DNA of 64,000 bases from Anthopleura xanthogrammica. Lineage: Eukaryota; Cnidaria; Anthozoa; Actiniaria; Actiniidae. The first letter of the stretch is position 1. The number at the start of each line of letters is the position of its first letter. The translations under genes and the position numbers were made by a program. The stretch is from NCBI GenBank assembly GCA_964019055.1, contig OZ025207.1, positions 21,904,117 through 21,968,116 of the forward strand, in the 5' to 3' direction. The notes beneath the pieces were generated by a model. The model was not told where the DNA came from and did not search any database. It worked only from the letters and a program-made list of their open reading frames with translations. Positions 24,675 to 60,121 of this stretch are shown here, piece after piece.

Positions 24675-25093
24675 CCCGGGAGGGGGGGGGGGGGGGGGGG
24701 TGACTCCGGGGGTAAAGTATCGGGTATGCTCGTCGGAAATTTCCAAAAATATATACCCCTAAAAGATACCGGAAGTTTTTTTCAAAAGGGCGTGGCTGGG
24801 TAAATTTTAACCCCTAAGAGATACCACAAAAATAATACTATTAAAAAAAAAGGCTTTTGAAATGTTTTTCCTTGAGTAATAATCTGAGTTTACGCAGGCA
24901 TACATATTGCGTTATTATGCGATGGGCTAGTACCTTATTCAACACCCTAAAAGATAACAGAAAGTGCTGATTTGATAAACCTCAAATTTAAGACCCTAAA
25001 AGATACCAAATCGCTGATTTTTACCCCTAAGAGATACGACGAGCATACCCGATACTTTACCCCCGGAGTCCCCCCCCCCCCCCCCCCTCCGGG
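24675..25093. mobile_element. Foldback element bounded by poly-G / poly-C runs
   Basis: The left end is CCCGGGAGG followed by a G run. Next come TGACTCCGGGGGTAAAGTAT and CGGGTATGCTCGTC. The right end mirrors this exactly, from GACGAGCATACCCGATACTT to a C run and CCTCCGGG. The interior repeats CCCCTAAAAGATACC-like units in both orientations. A similar but distinct element lies at 49378-49669. Confidence 0.75.
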
Positions 25094-25445
25094 ACCTTTG
25101 AACGGCCGTTGATATTCGAATCTAGTATGTTCTAGTTCTGCTCGGCCAAAGTTACTTATTATCAATCTTCAATAAGTTAATCAAATTCGCCTTTAACACA
25201 AGAAAAAGAGAGGGGTAGGCAAGAAAGGCCTCTTCTATTGTCCTCTCGTCTGCTACGATAATCCAAATATTTTGACATTCAAGGGAGCAATTTGTTTACA
25301 CAGCGTTACTCTTTTAAAACATAACCCAAATACTATTACTAACTGTCAAGGTTTTTTTACCATCTGAACGAAAGAATCAGACCACCGCTTGCGTTACAAG
25401 GTCTAACAACAGAACTGTCAACTATAACAATGTACAGAACATATA

Positions 25446-26098
25446 GTCTAGAAGCCAAACCCATTATTTTTCAATTTGGCTGCACCCCAGGGGTGGCTAA
25501 GGTTTCTTGGTATCATTTTAAAGCTTGAAGACTGCTGATTTCGAATTTGCTTGTTGCCACGCGAAATAAGTGTCCAAAAGGCTTGGTAACCTGGCCTAAA
25601 GTATACATACTTCTGTTTACAATAATTCCGTTATTATTCATTTTCTTCACGTTTTTTTGTGTTTCCTGTACAGTCATCCCATATAAACCTATGAAAAATT
25701 GCAGGAAATGTGAATTTATCAGTATTTTATTATCCATTAACTATGAATTTAGCTTCATTGGGTGACAAATGTTTTTTTGTAGCATTTCAAATGTAACAGA
25801 ACAGGTACTTTTGTTATATGAACCTTGGTTTGACATCAGAAAAGCTGTTTTTTAAGGAAGTTACCAATATTTTAACATTTAAACATCTAAATTTACCTTT
25901 TCTGTTATATCCATCAAACCGGAAGTTGATAAAAAAAAGCTACTTCCGGTTTTATTTTTTTCGGACTTTCTTCAATCAAAATCGAATAAAAGTTAATGAA
26001 GATCCAGATAATCCTATATTTAAGATAAACAGACACTACTCTAGATGTTTGACTACTTTTTGGACAATTTGAAAAAGTAAATGTTTCCGAAAATCTAA
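25446..26098. repeat. Left terminal inverted repeat of the PIN/CXC element
   Basis: It is the mirror of 29941-30634. The inner border is at AAATCTAA. A 73-codon frame reading outward in each arm is only the same sequence seen twice and is not called as a gene. Confidence 0.85.
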
Positions 26099-26206
26099 GT
26101 TATTTGTATGGTCTTAGTGTTTTCTAACTAAGCTTTTTTTCTGTTTGCTCTGGACAACATTAGGTCCACACAATAGCCTTTTCGTATGTACTTATACTGA
26201 AATCAG

Positions 26207-29200
26207 TTAGTAATTGCTGTCATCATCATCATCATTAAGGTCATTGTCTTCCTCCTCATCGCCACCTGCTGGATCCTGCCACACATTGCGGGGATTTGTA
26301 CAGTTATCGCCACACATACATGCATCAGTGCATGAGATGCTGTTCCTGTGACATGGGCAGTGCCCAGTTGAACAGTTCCCATTGCATCCGCAAATAATCA
26401 AGTCGAGAAGTGCTTCTGGGGCAGGGGGTAGTGACATCCAATTTAACTCGATGCTTCCTTCCTTAAGTATCCATCCACGCCCCTCAGGTGATGGAACGTT
26501 GGGATTTGTAACCAAGGCATGTCGCCAAACAGCAGCTTGGTAGTTTGCCCGCATTGTATGTTGCTTTAATGCATCTTGACAAGGTGGTAGACAGTGAGAC
26601 TGAGGTTGTTTGGTAACAAACATTTGGTACCGACAGTTGTTCACGCTAGACATGTCTTGGAATCCATACATATGGCAGACAAACTTTTCACATTCAGAAA
26701 CCAGGTCATCATCAGCATCAAACGATCTTCCAAGCATTGTCATTGATTGACAGTCTGCTTAATTGAATCTACACTGCTTTAGTGGCGTCTTCTTTCCTTT
26801 GCCTGAGAAAGAGCTAACCGAGTCACAGCCAGTGAAAGCATGCAAACCAGGTAGAGCGTTGCAAAAGGGCCAGGCCAGCTGCTTCTGATATTACTGAGAC
26901 ATCCAGATATACCACCCTGGTCTTAACTTTCCTCATGAGAAAAAGGCGTGCAGGAATTTGATTGTCAAAATGAAAGGCAAGGATAGCAACATCTGTGTCT
27001 TGAGATTTGATGATAACAGTGCTTTCTCCACTATCTGCAGCATGCTTGGCATGTAGAAGTAGCTTTGTGTCGGCCTCTTCGTGGTTGCTGCTCAATGCTG
27101 GAATCTCCTCACACAAAACGTTATCATCAAATACAGTGAGACGGAAGCACTTCAGCTCAAGAGCAAAGAAAAGGTGATGATTTCTTATCAAGTGCTTGTA
27201 TTTATCTTGGGACCACTCTTTCAAAAGGAATTTCGCTAACTCACTTTTGTTCTCACCACTGCTTAGGAACTTCTTCCATTGTTTGGGACACTTCTGAGAG
27301 CTCCCTGTGATCTTTACTTTGACTATTCCTTCATTTGCCCGCTTTGCTCTCTCGGGATTCTTGATGGATATTTCGGGATATCGGTCAGTGACAATGTCAA
27401 TTCGTCTTGCGAGACGCCTTCGAGGGACAACGTGATGAAAAACAGTAAGGGCAAGCTCCTCAAACGTCTCTGGAATCGGCTTTAAAGAATGAAGAATAGC
27501 CATGCCATCAACGATTATTGCAGACGTGGGTGGTACATCTTCTGCTGGATCAACGTCCTTAGTTAAAGACTACAACAATTTAGACTTGTCTGTCTTACCC
27601 AATGAGCCGTCAACAGATGCGAGAGACCAGGGCAGAGGACCAAGCGAGTACTCAAAAACCTCGGAGAGATCCATAGATCTTTTCTGGGCAACTACCAGAA
27701 GGCGAGCAAATATATTTCTGTCTGCTTTTACCATTACATCTTTGCCAGAGATCTTCACTTTGGATAGCTTTGATGATGAAAAGCTGGTCAGGTTCAATTT
27801 CTTTATTGGAGCATAGAAAGGCAATTCAGAACTTAACAATCTCTTATCAAAGAAGGATTTCATCGCTTCTTCCCCTTGCTTATGTGCTGTTAGGAGGTCG
27901 TTTTCAATCTTTTCAGAGGCTGCTAATCCAGATGCCAAGTGGCAAATCTCCTGGTCATCAGTCAGTTCAAATGGATTTGCCCAGTTGTTGATGGTCGTCT
28001 GAACTTTCTGACATCTTTCTCATCAGCTGTCATTCTGGTCTTGCCAATATCCTTCTCTGCAACATCTCCATCAGTTTGTTCCAATCCGGCCATCTCTCGG
28101 CAAGCTTGGGTGATAGCTGCCCGTTCTGCCCTTATTGACACTGAATCCAATGTTGCCGCCCTTGGTTTTTGTGTCTCGATTGACAGTTTGCTAGATTGTC
28201 TGGTCCACAGGTACTTGACTGAATGAACTGCCATTGCTTCTTTGAACAACGAACTCGCCGGTCTGAAAAGCACGAAGAGCAACGGGATGCTTTTCCTCCA
28301 ATGACTGCATATCCAGGAGGTAAACAGATAGAGAATAATTAACCCGGTCGTATGCAAACATCTACGGCAGTATATCATGGATACAGTCGAGGTACAACTT
28401 CCAATCACCTTTTCTTATTGAGCGGATAAATCGTAGGAGAAGACTGACCATATCGATGTATGACAACCAGTATTTGTCCATTTTGGTCGGTGATTGATTA
28501 AACTATTTGTACTTCGTATGGAGCTCTTCAAGTTCCGCAGTCTGATACAAACTCTGGATCGTGGAACTAGACAATTCGCTTTGGACGCTCATTGTTGTTG
28601 TGCCCACGGCTTGTATTAATACATTTACTTCCTCGTCATCTTTCACTGTATCGAGAAACGATTGCCAGTTGAGATGCCACAAAGCCTCCAAAACAATCTG
28701 AAAACGGTAAAGAATTTAAAGTTTAAACTAGAGTTTTAGTATACAAAGAGAGGAAAATACTCACCTTATGTGTACGTAGTGCCCTATTATGATGCTTTCC
28801 TTGAAGGATTCCATTTACTGCGCCACTACCTACAATCCTGGACTCGATCAAAAGGTCCTGCAGTCCACTTTCTCCAAATCGTTTCCCCAATACGGCAAGG
28901 AATGCACAAATGATATGAAAACTTCCCATGCGCAATACGACGCTCCTGAACTCTTCTTTCTGCTTCCATACAACTTCTAAAGCCTTAGCATATATCGCTT
29001 GATCTAAAACGATGACAGTGTCATCGAGTCCTATTTGTACTTCCATTTCGACGGATTTCTTGAGTAAGGTGTAGACTTTGGATAATTCTGTGGGTGATGC
29101 ATCAATGAGTTGACAATATCCAACTACGCTCTTGGGTGGAATTTCGCTCTTAAGTGCCATTGCATTAAATCCACGCCATGCTGGAACCAATGGATGTTGA

Positions 29201-29732
29201 TGAATCGATGAATCATCGTGGTTATTAAGAGCACGTGATAGCAACCAGCCAAAGTCCTTAATAATAGCACTATGGTGTACAACTGGGTTTCCCGCTACAT
29301 AAGTATCACGAGGGTGTTGCTCTGGTCCAATTCGTCTCCCAGCATTGTACTCTTGCACCTACAAAGTAAATTTGTATAACTAAGCATGACATTGCGGCAA
29401 CATTAACTATGATTGTGGATTAAAATCTTACCTGGTTCAAAACAGCTTGAAATGTACGTTTGCGCGTGCGTCGTATCTCCTGTCCGGGAAGGCAGCGGAT
29501 CACACCCAGCCACCTGTCGTTGTACAATAATTCCATTTGTACAATGAGTTGTACCCCGGCCTGACAGGGTTTCTTCCAATATGTTGATATTGTCCCAACA
29601 GAAAGTACTAAACACGTTTGGATGGATGATCTTTGGTAGTATTACACCATTGACTTCTGTTTTCAGTTGCTCTTCAGCTAGTTGTGTCTCAATTTGGAGC
29701 ACTTGATCATAGAATATATATTGCATGACCAA
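26207..29732 (-). pseudogene. Element-borne gene: PIN-like nuclease motifs plus C-terminal CXC cluster, decayed
   Basis: Read on the minus strand, the N-terminal part (29732 down) has an intron at 29359-29431 and another at 28698-28764, both GT-AG. The middle encodes FHIICAFLAVLGKRFGES and, after a stop near 28503, a segment with LPWMFAYDRVNYSLSVYLLD. Next come VFEYSLGPLPWSLASVDGS, IIVDGMAILHS, NHEEADTKLLLHAKHA, KSQDTDVAILAF and GLHAFTGCDSVSSFSGKGKK. The spaced acidic residues VDG, EADT, DTDV and TGCD look like a PIN/FEN-type metal-binding site. The C-terminus (26300-26396) carries a CGCNGNCSTGHCPC-type tesmin/TSO1 CXC cluster and an acidic tail. Breaks: in-frame stops at 27570-27572 (TAG), about 26760 and about 28503, and frameshifts near 26875, 28005 and 28130. 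I loosely recall similar proteins, annotated as uncharacterised, in cnidarian genomes. Function is inferred from motifs only. Confidence 0.7.
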
Positions 29733-29940
29733 ATCGATTAAGCAATGTTATCACCTCTTTACTTCCTGTTAGGTTTTTGACAGTACTTTTTAATTGTTTG
29801 ATTGATTTTTATTATGATAATGTTCAAGATAATGAACATTCATTTCAGACATAGATTTAACATGATCTAGCTTTCTTTTATGCAAAAAAAATGTTTTATA
29901 TCTCATTTTAATAATTCACTCTTTTCCCATATATATTTAG

Positions 29941-30634
29941 TTAGATTTTCGGAAACATTTACTTTTTCAAATTGTCCAAAAAGTAGTCAAACATCTAGAG
30001 TAGTGTCTGTTTATCTTAAATATAGGATTATCTGGATCTTCATGAACTTTTATTCGATTTTGATTGAAGGAAGTCCGAAAAAAATAAAACCGGAAGTAGC
30101 TTTTTATCAACTTCCGGTTTGATGGATATAACAGAAAAGGTAAATTTAGATGTTTAAATGTAAGAATATTGGTAACTTCTTATTGGTAAACAGCTTTTCT
30201 GATGTCAAACCAAGGTTCATATAACAAAAGTACCTGTTCTGTTACATTTGAAATGCTACAAAAAAACATTTGTCACCCAATGAAGCTAAATTCATAGTTA
30301 ATGGATAATAAAATACTGATAAATTCACATTTCCTGCAATTTTTCTCAAACTTTCATAATAATGCATTAGATTAGTGCCCAGCAGAAAGATCTAAGAGGT
30401 TTATATGGGATGACTGTACAGGAAACACAAAAAAACGTGAAGAAAATGAATAATAACGGAATTATTGTAAACAGAAGTATGTATACTTTAGGCCGGGTTA
30501 CTTATTTCGCGTGGCAACAAGCAAATTCGAAATCAGCAGTCTTCAAACTTTAAAATGATACCAAGAAACCTTAGCCACCCCTGGGGTGCAGCCAAATTGA
30601 AAAATAAGGCTCTTTTCAGAATTGGCTTCTAGAC
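29941..30634. repeat. Right terminal inverted repeat of the PIN/CXC element
   Basis: It is the mirror of 25446-26098, with an extra block of about 45 bp (about 30345-30390: TTTCATAATAATGCATTAGA and following) that the left arm lacks. It ends TTGGCTTCTAGAC. Confidence 0.85.
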
Positions 30635-31133
30635 TAATATTTCTGCATATTCAATGCCTTAAATCTAAGCCATCTCGTACCAAACACTGATACACAACAA
30701 AAAATAATTAAAACTCGTTCAAAAAAAAAAATTTTTTTTTCAATGGAAAACATCGATTCGTACCAAAAATCTTGAAGGACAAAATGACAAAATGACAAAG
30801 AGACTTCGTTATCAAACATCAGTGTTACGAGGATCGTAACACCCGCAAACTGGTCAAAAACTGTTCAAGGAGTAATGTACGCTTGATCATTGTGAGAAGA
30901 GATATTTTTCAACCCCAATAATATGGATTCAAGTTTGCTTTTTAAGTGCTAGCCGTTATTTACAGCCGTATCCTTCACTCAACCCTACCTATAGCTCCTA
31001 TATTACTTAAATTTTGTGTTTGACCCCGAGTCCATGTTTTGTACACGAGTCCATGTTATTCGAGTCCAGTCCATGTTTTCTCTGTAATGATAAAAAGGTA
31101 AATTTTACACCGTAAAAAATAAGAAAGATCACT

Positions 31134-31300: not shown

Positions 31301-31636
31301 TTAATTAAAAGCGAAGCGTTCATTCATCCCATTGGGATTATGAGTACCCAATAGGTGAATGAGCCGCATCGCTTTGGTTTTGCGACAATCATTGTTGCCG
31401 CTAACCAAAGACAAACCGAAAACAATAAAGTCGGAAAGTGAATGATTAGGCAAATTGAAATGGCGGGAAACTGGTTTAGTTGGATCGTTCTTACGAATAT
31501 CATAAAGATGGTCGCGGATACGATCACCAAAACGACGGCTAGTTTTACCAACATATAAAAGATTACAGCGAGAACATTTAATACAGCAAATGACATTGAA
31601 AGTGGTACATGTTTTCTCTGGTCCAGTCGAGACCAT
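31301..31636 (-). pseudogene. GIY-YIG endonuclease domain of a Penelope-like element (fragment)
   Basis: An open frame of 111 codons with a stop at its 3' end. In intact elements the GIY-YIG domain is the C-terminal part of a longer RT protein; here only this domain is left. Visible catalytic features are LLYVGKT (in the place of the GIY/YIG strands) and the following Arg (FGDRIRDH). It is not expected to be expressed on its own. Confidence 0.8.
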
Positions 31637-44862: not shown

Positions 44863-46605
44863 GTGCCTAAATATGTATATATATATATTATTTCAGTCCT
44901 CATTCATATTTTACCTTCTGTTCTAGAACAAGTTCCTGGCCCAAGAATCTATTTCTACTACAATAGTCCTCTCTACCCATCGGTCTACCGAGTAGTCGGA
45001 GGTTCTCTGACAGGGACACAAAAGGCTTTTGATGACCACAACCACGACACTATTGCAAAAAATGAAAAATTTACGGTGCTTATGAATTTCAGCTCGCCTT
45101 TGTACAACAAACGAAAACGGTGGTATGAGATCTCAGCACGAATCTGTTATGGAAAAGATATTGAAGGATGTGTGAACCAAACACGTCCATTTAGCAACCC
45201 GTATCTTGTACGGCCATCGAGTGCGGATACCCCCGTTCCTTTTGTGGTCCCTTTCAGCAAGTTATATAATGCAACCTTACCTGATGGGCAAACTGTCTAT
45301 GAAAGTGGCACCGTTCATGAGCAGTTCAAAACATTTGAAGTCAACGGAGCTAAGTATGATACATCTTCAGGTGTTCTTGTGAGTTTTTCAGCAGAGTCAC
45401 CTCAGAAGGCAGGCAAAATATCCGGCATAGATTTTTTGAGAGACAGAGGAAAAGTGCTCAAAAATCAACCTCTAATCCAGTGCTATTTTGTGGAGTGGAC
45501 TGCCGAGGGATGCTTACCGGGCTTAGACAACGTAATGCTTGGATATGACGTAAAATTCATGCAACTAAAAAGCCGGCCTTGGTTGAGGGCAGTGGAGTTT
45601 CCGAATCACAGAGATGACAGATACCACCAGAAACTCTACATCCCAGAAATTGGTGAAAAAAAGTATCTTGTGTTTAAAGATATGGCTCTGGAAAAAATAT
45701 CACCAATCGCAAATCCTTTCTCTTACCTTTTTAAGTCGGTTGAAGAGCAAGTCAACACAACTCTGATATCAGTTGGACTTGGATTCACAAAAGGACTCTT
45801 CTTAGGATCTGGAAGGTACCAAAGCTTTTCCAAACACTATGAAAAGCATTCTTATTCAGCCGCAGTGTCTGGAATAAAGTTCAGATTGTTTCGTGGTACT
45901 ATGTCGAAAACCTATATTGAAGACGAAGCGAACTGGGATGACGGTTTTAAGACGAAATGGAAAAGGATGTTTGACCAGCGTAACAAGGGTAACGCCATGG
46001 ATTTCTTTAGGGAATACGGAACCCATTATCTCACGCAGGCGGTGATGGGTGGAAAACAAGAGACAGTTTTCACAATTGATTATTGTGAGGTTAGTAAGGA
46101 AACGAAAACAAAACTGGCCTTTGAGGCTAAGTTAATAAAGCCCTACAAGTTCTATTCAAGCATTGTTGGTATTCAAGCCTACTACAGGTACATGAAAAAC
46201 CACTCTTTGTCGAAGATTATCATCTCGGGTCCGCAAACTACATGCACCGGAGGAAACTCTCTGGATTTAGATGTTTGCAACAATTTAACACTCTGGAGGT
46301 CAACAGTCTTGACTAACCCCTATCCAATCGAAATGACCCTGAAACCATTTTACACACTTATTAAGGGTTACGACGACAGAGTCTGGTTTGAGGAGATGTA
46401 CAAAGAGTATCTGAAGGCTGATCTTGATGAAGTGGAAATCAATAGTGATATCAAGTCAAAAGCAACGTGCGAGAAAAGGCAACTTCTTGGAGGCACAGCA
46501 ACATCTCTTCCCGACTGGGCTATTGTTGGTATTACAGCTGGAGTTTGTGTATTCCTTGCTTTGGTTGGTATTGCCGGGTCCTGCCTACGCCGGTACCTAT
46601 CCTGA
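44863..46605 (+). CDS. MACPF-domain protein with C-terminal transmembrane anchor
   Basis: Perforin-fold proteins form membrane pores in immunity and venom, or act in development without pore formation. This 580-codon frame carries the MACPF signature YGTHYLTQAVMGG at residues 385-397. The domain plausibly starts near residue 213 (GLDNVMLGYDVKF) and runs to about 520. The first 200 residues form a separate extracellular region I do not recognise. Residues 553-575 (WAIVGITAGVCVFLALVGIA) form a single hydrophobic helix, followed by the short basic tail RRYLS, so a type I membrane protein is predicted. That differs from secreted perforins and recalls perforin-2/MPEG1, but the MPEG1 P2 domain is not evident. 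Start: the given ATG precedes a hydrophobic YVYIYIISVLIHIL stretch that could be a signal peptide. However, TTCTAG at 44921-44926 after a pyrimidine tract is a good acceptor, so coding may begin at 44927 with a missing upstream exon. The rest is intronless. Confidence 0.85.
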   Translation: MPKYVYIYIISVLIHILPSVLEQVPGPRIYFYYNSPLYPSVYRVVGGSLTGTQKAFDDHNHDTIAKNEKFTVLMNFSSPLYNKRKRWYEISARICYGKDIEGCVNQTRPFSNPYLVRPSSADTPVPFVVPFSKLYNATLPDGQTVYESGTVHEQFKTFEVNGAKYDTSSGVLVSFSAESPQKAGKISGIDFLRDRGKVLKNQPLIQCYFVEWTAEGCLPGLDNVMLGYDVKFMQLKSRPWLRAVEFPNHRDDRYHQKLYIPEIGEKKYLVFKDMALEKISPIANPFSYLFKSVEEQVNTTLISVGLGFTKGLFLGSGRYQSFSKHYEKHSYSAAVSGIKFRLFRGTMSKTYIEDEANWDDGFKTKWKRMFDQRNKGNAMDFFREYGTHYLTQAVMGGKQETVFTIDYCEVSKETKTKLAFEAKLIKPYKFYSSIVGIQAYYRYMKNHSLSKIIISGPQTTCTGGNSLDLDVCNNLTLWRSTVLTNPYPIEMTLKPFYTLIKGYDDRVWFEEMYKEYLKADLDEVEINSDIKSKATCEKRQLLGGTATSLPDWAIVGITAGVCVFLALVGIAGSCLRRYLS

Positions 46606-50537: not shown

Positions 50538-53500
50538 TTAGTTATTACCTAGGAATTCAGCATATTTCTGGTATATATGTTTGGCTACAGCAACACTGTC
50601 TCCCACAGGTTTGTCTGGATATCCTTCTCTTCCAACTGTCCATGCAGTCTCCTGGACCAGTAACTGTTTACTGAACGCATCATAATCAATTTTCTTGCCT
50701 TGAGACACAGCTTCGTAGAGTTCTTTAATAAAAAGTACCCATCGAGGTCGATAATATGAACCAACCAAACCATTCCACATCTTATTAGCATAGTCATCAA
50801 TCTCCCCAGTAGGACCCCACAGGGTTACTTGATTACGTGCATTGTATTCATAAAGTGCAGCGTCATCTGGAGTGGTGGCCAATTCCTTTGCTGCATTCAG
50901 CCAGCGTCCCAGTAAGAAATGCTCATTGGTCAAGAGGAGTGTGTTAAGGTCTTCGAAGAGTTCAATGAGTTTAGATCCATTAGCATAAAGCTGTGATCCT
51001 TGTTTGTTATTGTAGGCGCTGATCATTTTGTCATAGATTTGGATAGATATCAGGTGAAGAGATTCCCGAGTAACATCCACTAAATCATATCTGAAGAAAA
51101 TAACGTCACTAATTAATAATTGTTGTGTACAAAATGATAGACATGAAATAACATATTATCATGATGTTTGATTATGATGATAAGCTGCAGATAATGATGG
51201 TGGTGATGATGAAAATGGTGCTGCTGCTTGTGATGATGACGGCAATGATGGTAATGATGACAATGATGCTGCTGCTGCAGATGATGATAGTAATAATGGC
51301 GATGATGATGATGACAATGATGTTGCTGCAGATGATGGCAATGATGGTGGTGATGATGAACATGACAATGATGCTGCTGCAGATGATGGTAATGATGGTG
51401 GCGATGGTGATGATGACAATGATGCTGCTGCAGATGATGGCAATGATGGTGGTGATGGTGATGATGACATTGATGTTGCTGCAGATGATGATGATGACAA
51501 TGATGGTGGTGATGACCCTGCTGCAGATGATGATGCTAATGGTGATGGTGGTAATGACAATGATGCTGCTGCAGATGATGGCAATGATGGTGGTGGTAAT
51601 GACAATGATGCTGCTGCAGATGATGATGGTAATGATTGTGGTGATGGTGATGATCACAACGATGTTGATGCAGATGATGGCAATGATGGTGGCGATGGTG
51701 ATGATGGCAATGATGCTGCTGCAGATGATGGCAATGATGGTGATGATCACAACGATGTTGCTGTAGATGATGGTAATGATGGTGATGATGGTGATGATGG
51801 TGATGATGGCAATAATATTGCTGCAGATGATGGCAATGATGGTGGCGATGGTGATGATGGCAATGATGCTGCTGCAGATGATGGCAATGATGGTGATGAT
51901 CAAAACGATGTTGCTGCAGATGATGGCAATGATGGTGGCGATGGTGATGATGACAATGATGTTGCTGCAGATAATGTTGACAATAATGGTGGTGATGGTG
52001 AAGATGACAATGATGTTACAGATGATGATTTTGGTGATAATGCATATGGGTGCAATGATGATGACAATGATAATAATAATACTAATGATGAGAAAGCATA
52101 GAGGGGCCTAATAGGGATGATAATAAATGTTAGTTGTTTAAGATTGGTATCAGACCTGAATGTCTCCACTTTTGAGAACCCATCAGCTACAAACAGAAGG
52201 TTTTGCCATGCTGCATAAACATCCTCAGGATTAAACCAGACATGGGGAGAAACACTGAGTGATGGCTTGACTACAATAACAGAGTGGGAGTGATCATGAA
52301 AGCCATCAGTACAGTTGTACACACTCCTTGCTAACAGTTCCCAAGCTTCGGCAATCTGGTCATTGATACCTCCATATCTTCTTTGAGCATATGATATCAC
52401 CCAGTTCTGTAGATCTGTTGGAGTGAAACTAGTACTTCTCCAGCCCATCTCATTCATTAAATCATACATCATGTCATTCTGGAATATTCCTTCTGGAGCC
52501 AAGCCAGTGCCGAGCATGGTGTGGTGAGAACTGAGGGAGGCTTTAACGGGGTCTGAGAAAAAAATGAAAAATTTGACACTTGAGACTGATAAACTAATGG
52601 ATGACTTTTAGGCATTATAATTGTGAAGGCCTAACCATTTACAGAATGATGCAATTACAATGGCTGCACCTTCAGCCTTAATTACAAGTATTGTAACCCT
52701 GTTCGACAAGCAATAGTGCAAATCTGCACTTTTAAGTTTCTTTCGTTCGTTGAAGTGCGACCCGCAAAGTTTGATTTCTCATTTGCCAACTAGCATTTTG
52801 ACAGCCATCAATCAAAGAACTAAACTAGAAAAAATCCATTCTTGAGAGAAATGTTAGACTGAATTAAAGATTTTAGAGGAATAGAGGATTAAATATCTTA
52901 AAATTGTTTTATACTGACAGTATCCATATTTTGGCATTTGACTTACTGGTTGCAACACTTTCTATAGCACCATATAGGCCATGGTTCCCCCCAAAGTTAT
53001 GCAACATGCACCAGATGAATGGCTGGCCGTACAATGCAGAAGAGCGCTGCCAAATAGGATTTACTTCAGCAATCAGATCCAAAATAATCATTTTTCCTGT
53101 AGGGACACCTGCATAAAAAGAAAAAAAAAACACATGGCAATGATCACAGTCTCAAATGATTCACTCTAGATGAAAGTAATTGAGAAGCAGTGAGTGAATG
53201 GATGAATAAAACAGTTAGCTGAGTTTCAGGCCATCCCTACATGCAGAATAGACCCCTTTCACATGACGTTAAAGCAGCACAATTTTGAGGACAGAACAAA
53301 TTTTTTTTAATCTCCTGATAATTGGATCCTGTTGTTTTGTCATCCAAATTGAGCTGCATTCAGACATGCTGCAAGGGGTCTATGATTCCAAATAATTTAT
53401 AAATGATATAAAAATGTTATAGTAGCTCTTTATAATAGTAAGTATAATTAATGCCTAATTAACCTTGGAAAGAATACCAGTAATTGGATTACATACCAGT

Positions 53501-59568: not shown

Positions 59569-60121
59569 TTAGTTATTACCTAGGAATTCAGCATATTTCT
59601 GGTATATATGCTTGGCTACAGCAACACTGTCTCCCACAGGTTTGTCTGGATATCCTTCTCTTCCAACTGTCCATGCAGTCTCTTGAACCAGTAACTGTTT
59701 ACTGAATGCGTCATAATCAATTGTCTTGCCTTGAGAGACAGCTTCGTAGAGTTCTTTAATAAAAAGTACCCATCGAGGTCGATAATATGAACCAACCAAA
59801 CCATTCCACATCTTATTAGCATAGTCATCAATCTCCCCAGTAGGACCCCACAGGGTTACTTGATTACGTGCATTGTATTCATAAAGTGCAGCGTCATCTG
59901 GAGTGGTGGCCAATTCCTTTGCTGCATTCAGCCAGCGTCCCAGTAAGAAATGCTCATTGGTCAAGAGGAGAGTGTCCAGGTCTGCTAACAGTTCAATTAG
60001 CTTGGTGCCATTATGGAAGAGCTGTGACGCTTGCTTGGTTTTGTAGGCATTGATTATTCTGTTGTAGATTTCAGTGGCTATGAGGTGAAGAGATTCTCGT
60101 GTAACATCCACCAAATCATAT
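59569..60121 (-). CDS. Second copy of the NAGLU terminal exon (tandem gene end or orphan exon)
   Basis: This 553 bp block has the same length as NAGLU exon 7, a CAG acceptor before ATATGATTTGGTGGATGT, and the same stop. Its protein matches exon 7 of the complete gene. The first 45 or so residues differ at many positions (HLIATEIYNRIINAYKTKQ against [19 protein letters not shown]). From [17 protein letters not shown] onward only one residue differs (T for K in SQGKTIDY). It lies upstream of the complete gene on the same strand. No matching exon 6 is seen between 60121 and 61637, where a plus-strand gene starts. Either the rest of a second NAGLU lies beyond the window with that gene inside its intron, or only this exon was duplicated. 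Confidence 0.8.

Follow-up and report, generated by a model that had tools for sequence, protein, structure and literature searches.

A decayed cut-and-paste DNA transposon of Anthopleura xanthogrammica, most likely of the AcademX lineage, with a predicted RNase-H/DDE-like core and FEN/XPG-like nuclease in one protein

A 64,000-nucleotide stretch of the genome of the cnidarian Anthopleura xanthogrammica (assembly GCA_964019055.1, contig OZ025207.1, positions 21,904,117 to 21,968,116), referred to here as the window, contains an element with long inverted arms and one broken gene. Our data indicate that it is a decayed cut-and-paste DNA transposon, most likely of AcademX, a lineage of the Academ superfamily reportedly introduced by Kojima in 2020. 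A first-pass annotation had described its only gene as carrying a PIN/FEN-like nuclease and a CXC cluster without a DDE enzyme, and had tentatively placed the element in a poorly described group. We found the nuclease and the CXC cluster in the only gene of a DNA transposon as described, while an RNase-H/DDE-like core is predicted in the same protein, and core, nuclease and 3-bp target duplication together fit AcademX as characterized in PMC10045372.

We fixed the limits of the window element from 18 copies in the 289.8-Mb assembly and from the pre-insertion loci of other insertions (Table 1). The arms of approximately 650 bp and their termini, GTCTAGAAGCC, are as first annotated; their matching parts form five blocks, each 79-165 bp long and 97-100% complementary, with small indels between. 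Both ends share their initial 15 bp, followed by a short end-specific stretch, and these two end versions were found again in the other two-ended copies. The flanking TA, formerly taken for the target duplication, is the terminus of the element, which with the TA included reads TAGTCTAG...CTAGACTA; the duplication is the 3-bp ATA beyond it. A TA duplication was ruled out by the pre-insertion loci and by the exact 3-bp match outside the TA, and with the TA terminal and absent from the pre-insertion loci the element does not behave as a Tc1/mariner-type or other TA-targeting transposon.

An exact 3-bp duplication borders 18/18 counted copies, which fall into three families (A, that of the window, B and C). 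With ends TAGTC...GACTA, identical 3 bp lie on both sides in 13/13 copies of families A and B (family A: TTA, TAA, TTA, TAA and TGA, and ATA in the window; family B: ATT, ATA, TAA, TAA, CTC, TAA and TTT), and crossed pairs of these flanks agree over 3 bp in 24 of 156 cases. Agreement over 4 bp occurs in 0/13 of these copies, as does the 8-bp duplication of hAT elements. Family C has CTA, ATT, TAA, TTA and TAT (5/5). Excluded from the 18 were L015, a duplicate of L014 (flanks 99.6-99.8% identical, both TGA/TGA), L013 (one arm only), L016 (left end outside the stretch) and L017-L022 (partial arm matches). Element-free relatives of the flanks were found for 4 of the 13 family A and B sites (at least 43 matches, with 40 of 905 candidates scored); for nine of the 13, the window's own included, no empty site was found among the best 40 of 905 candidates. 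Ten of the 11 element-free matches inspected are pre-insertion loci (L060-L062, L063-L065, L066-L067 and L069-L070). Since each holds the 3 bp once and lacks the TA, the flanking TA belongs to the element. The alignment is less sharp at the C19 site, which adjoins a run of A, and L066 and L067, a dispersed repeat, match L014 over about 62-64 and 83-85 bp only.

The eleventh match, L068, is the excision-like locus L081. This locus and L082 lie on the contig of L014, about 50-100 kb away, and read GGGTGA-TAGACTA-TGAGTG, that is, two 3-bp duplications and 7 bp of element ends. Their left flanks match L014 over 343 bp (L081) and about 200 bp (L082), and their right flanks over 84 bp and about 400 bp, respectively (90-97%); the outer right block is inverted and unmatched stretches separate the blocks. 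The sequence suggests that the element was excised and the site rejoined at a TAG microhomology; the remnant may instead come from a deletion made without the transposase. Because L081 and L082 are 98.5% identical, they possibly record one event that was duplicated later. Contig C3 holds at 5.35-5.77 Mb a duplicated region with L014, L015, L016, L081 and L082, in which some copies carry the element and two carry the excision-like 7-bp remnant.

The arms recur beyond chance. The left arm of the window element has 38 matches in the genome, and both ends are present in five further copies (L009, L010, L011, L012 and L014), which with the window form family A. The 786-aa frame of L011, used as a protein query, had at least 78 matches (57 of 219 candidates scored). 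In several copies the gene lies between matching arms, and this only gene very probably encodes the mobilization enzyme, as had been proposed. Family B, a sister family found among the protein matches, spread recently, by the near-identity of its copies: seven copies on seven contigs, 6950-6959 bp long, share 99.5-100% identity across about 4.65 kb, and the open frame measures 1593-1595 aa in six of them and 1398 aa in one. Its arm has 26 matches, of which 14 at 99-100% pair as inverted arms in 7/7 copies. Family C (L029 type) has 12 arm matches, ten of them paired into five copies, which measure about 7.3-7.4 kb (three copies), 12.5 kb and 1.35 kb (one each). The smallest (contig C14, about 543261-544639) has both ends and the TAT duplication; since it is too short for the gene, it was likely mobilized by an enzyme supplied from elsewhere. 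Between the three families, the arms have no visible common stretch past the terminal dozen bases, and their longest common words, 8-11 bases, lie mostly in different places.

The window gene was covered at 26276-29793 by tblastn with P0100, P0081 and P0195, and its final open frame reaches 26207. VDGMA, EEADT, DTDV, TGCD..GKGK and the CXC-type cluster lie on a single minus-strand gene where first reported; the gene extends beyond the PIN-like part, with conserved motifs of an RNase-H/DDE-like core (28155-29600) upstream that had been missed. A TAG stop at 28191-28193 falls inside the D-x-x-x-E motif of this core, and the frame shifts near 26865. Given this stop and frame change, the window copy is decayed and unable to make the complete protein.

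In relatives, the longest frames (about 1,200-1,700 aa) hold in one protein, and in this order, Cys/His-rich N-terminal segments (recognized by eye), an RNase-H-fold DDE-like core whose Glu is preceded by a long helical insertion, a nuclease of FEN/XPG type and, at the C-terminus, a CXC cluster. Precomputed labels among the 120 listed of 262 relatives include PF20231 (DUF6589) in 7 and PF03638 (CXC) in 7. Pfam scans of 14 relatives gave DUF6589 at E <= 0.1 in 7/8 and 6/6, above the cut-off only in P0199, and CXC in 4/8 and 4/6 (E <= 0.1), above the cut-off in 3/8 and 3/6. Pieces of the window and of near-copies gave nothing above the cut-off, the sole telling weak row of that scan being 5_3_exonuc_N in the relative P0037 (E 0.032), and PF03638 was not found in the window piece at E <= 1. 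Among 50 aligned relatives, hand-picked from those listed, the nuclease acids D766, D807, E909, E910, D912, D936, D938 and D994 (P0105 numbering), which we take to correspond to the FEN acids, are invariant in 50/50, as are the core residues D526, E530 and N534; D64 and D243 (P0197 numbering) are invariant among the 21 N-terminal relatives. A PIN-like fold with this acid set points to a FEN/XPG-type nuclease, the strongest fold match in the protein. Against PDB, plain Foldseek found nothing at E <= 0.001 for the nuclease or the core model, and no transposase stood out for the core; with a second-look aligner, transposases and integrases occupied the top rows for the core model at modest Z. Since plain Foldseek is silent on the core, the DDE reading rests on the second-look aligner and the motifs. 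Taken together, conserved acids and structural matches suggest that the same protein holds an RNase-H/DDE-like core.

We considered whether these elements form a superfamily separate from Academ, in which a DUF6589-like DDE core is fused to a FEN/XPG nuclease and CXC cluster. The likeness to Academ is by description, and among the papers listed in searches of the open literature none links DUF6589, Academ with Cys8 or XPG, and CXC/CRC with a transposase; these points speak for a separate superfamily. None of the papers listed has the combination of core, FEN/XPG nuclease and CXC in a transposon. It is Academ, however, that is noted among superfamilies for an XPG nuclease and a cysteine cluster. 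Furthermore, PMC10045372 gives a DDE core, a nuclease and a 3-bp duplication as AcademX traits. We therefore regard a separate superfamily as unlikely and place the elements probably within Academ. Another reading, the one first annotated, in which the FEN/XPG-like domain acts by itself as the transposase and the N-terminal region has no catalytic role, would agree with the invariant acids and leading fold match of that domain, but in the N-terminal core Asp residues at strand ends are invariant and a helix bears the Glu, the structures that this core matches best are those of transposases and integrases, and DDE strand transfer typically leaves a constant short target duplication; we find this view improbable. 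A host gene or gene family lying between repeats by chance, to which the database listing of named relatives as host proteins, uncharacterised or hypothetical, might point, is hardly credible given element-specific ends with 3-bp duplications in 18/18 counted copies, near-identical copies on separate contigs and the existing pre-insertion loci.

DDE transposases usually cut both strands using one active site; this lineage keeps a FEN/XPG-like nuclease fused to its predicted DDE core. In the mechanism that we infer, the DDE core would cut at TAGTC...GACTA and join the element ends to both target strands, 3 bp apart; the FEN/XPG part would cleave or trim the second strand or the flaps, at excision or integration; and the CXC cluster and N-terminal Cys/His segments would bind DNA. 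The LIN54-type CHR site (TTYGAA) was rejected as a CXC target, since it showed no enrichment in the arms of any of the three families (A, B and C: p 0.35, 0.83 and 0.55, respectively). We tentatively raise a further possibility, itself doubtful, that two nucleases strictly divide the cutting, in a lineage perhaps distinct from Academ: the DDE core would cut one strand per end and carry out strand transfer, and the fused FEN/XPG domain would make the second-strand cut or remove 5' flaps. If true, such a division of labor would set the enzyme apart from known cut-and-paste enzymes, which proceed through hairpins or double cuts. The role of the second nuclease is directly testable in this genome because it holds family B, whose seven near-identical copies have open frames as well as exact ends, the 1.35-kb copy of family C, and pre-insertion, filled and excised-looking loci.

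Table 1. Features of the element in the window (window positions)
Feature	Position	Strand	Remarks
Whole element	25444..30636	.	5193 bp; ends TAGTCTAGAAGCC...GGCTTCTAGACTA
Left target-site duplication	25441..25443	.	ATA
Right target-site duplication	30637..30639	.	ATA
Left inverted arm	25444..26098	+	about 655 bp
Right inverted arm	29941..30636	-	about 696 bp; small indels add length
Broken transposase-nuclease gene	26207..29793	-	aligns to relatives piecewise, with changing frame
First acidic motif of DDE-like core, CWDNI	29586..29600	-	Asp invariant in 21/21 N-terminal relatives
Probable intron, GT...AG	29359..29431	-	73 bp; predicted from sequence, placed by tblastn alignment
Second acidic motif, VLDQAIYAKA	28981..29010	-	Asp invariant in 21/21 N-terminal relatives
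GSFH motif	28915..28926	-	after presumed fifth strand; Gly and Phe invariant, His at least 90% (21 N-terminal relatives)
Probable intron, GT...AG	28698..28764	-	67 bp; predicted from sequence, placed by tblastn alignment
YDRVNY motif, helical insertion	28335..28352	-	tblastn and alignment of relatives
Presumed catalytic Glu motif	28155..28193	-	DQTxEQTVNRDTKTKGG in relatives
FEN/XPG-like nuclease, first part	26865..27512	-	alignment and fold match
FEN/XPG motif VDGMA	27498..27512	-	
FEN/XPG motif TDRYP	27375..27389	-	
FEN/XPG motif EEADT	27066..27080	-	
FEN/XPG motif DTDV	26988..26999	-	
FEN/XPG-like nuclease, last motif TGCD..GKGKK	26789..26833	-	different frame
CXC (tesmin/TSO1-like) cysteine cluster	26300..26392	-	CGCNGNCSTGHCPC at 26351-26392

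Named relatives include those of Actinostola, Xenia, Dendronephthya, Paramuricea, Sycon, Ptychodera and Styela, and we take the relatives to come from a sponge (Sycon), cnidarians, sea urchins, sea cucumbers, a crinoid, an acorn worm (Ptychodera), a tunicate (Styela), fish, a snail and a spider. In cnidarians, echinoderms, hemichordates, sponges and fish, uncharacterised proteins thereby gain an annotation. One relative, P0140, stands under the name of a bacterial metagenome-assembled genome (Sedimenticola) and is probably contamination, animal DNA binned with a symbiont. Among viral contigs, 23 pattern matches gave no confirmed relative. Elsewhere in the window, a 54-bp inverted repeat (24682-24735 and 25037-25090; 96% complementary, with long G/C runs) lies just outside the element, and frames judged by eye include a GIY-YIG endonuclease domain candidate, perhaps retroelement-derived (31301-31636, minus strand), a 580-aa MACPF/perforin-family candidate (44863-46605, plus strand) and two closely similar candidates for an alpha-N-acetylglucosaminidase C-terminus (50538-51080 and 59569-60114, minus strand), which probably arose by tandem duplication of a gene.

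In AcademX the nuclease is of the XPG type and comes with a cysteine cluster, and the elements described here likewise encode a predicted XPG-type nuclease together with a putative DDD/E core, judged by conserved acids and second-look structural rows; the two were set beside each other by description, and the CXC cluster may be the counterpart of the AcademX cysteine cluster. According to PMC10045372, AcademX is a DNA transposon with an encoded nuclease and duplications of 3 or 4 bp, a range that includes the 3 bp found in 18/18 copies, whereas AcademH, of the same superfamily, has a helicase instead of the nuclease and duplications of 9 or 10 bp, the sizes being related there to the encoded nuclease or helicase. 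PMC10294476 counts Academ among the DDE/D superfamilies and gives 5565 bp as its mean length in a curated bivalve library, near the 5.2-7.4 kb of our elements, and PMC9004415 lists an Academ-1_NV transposase. No helicase family was found in the 14 Pfam-scanned relatives at E <= 0.1, which, like the 3-bp duplication, separates them from AcademH. To our knowledge, hAT transposases have no FEN/XPG domain; the target duplication of Kolobok elements is TTAA. hAT elements (Hermes) also differ in their usually 8-bp duplications, according to PMC12730594. KolobokE, KolobokD and KolobokP are similar in being DDE transposons with an accessory nuclease, although according to PMC9587614 these nucleases have other folds (PD-D/ExK, DEDDh and His-Me finger). 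Finally, FEN1, Exo1 and XPG resemble the nuclease of the element in fold and acid set, but they are host repair enzymes and belong to no mobile element.
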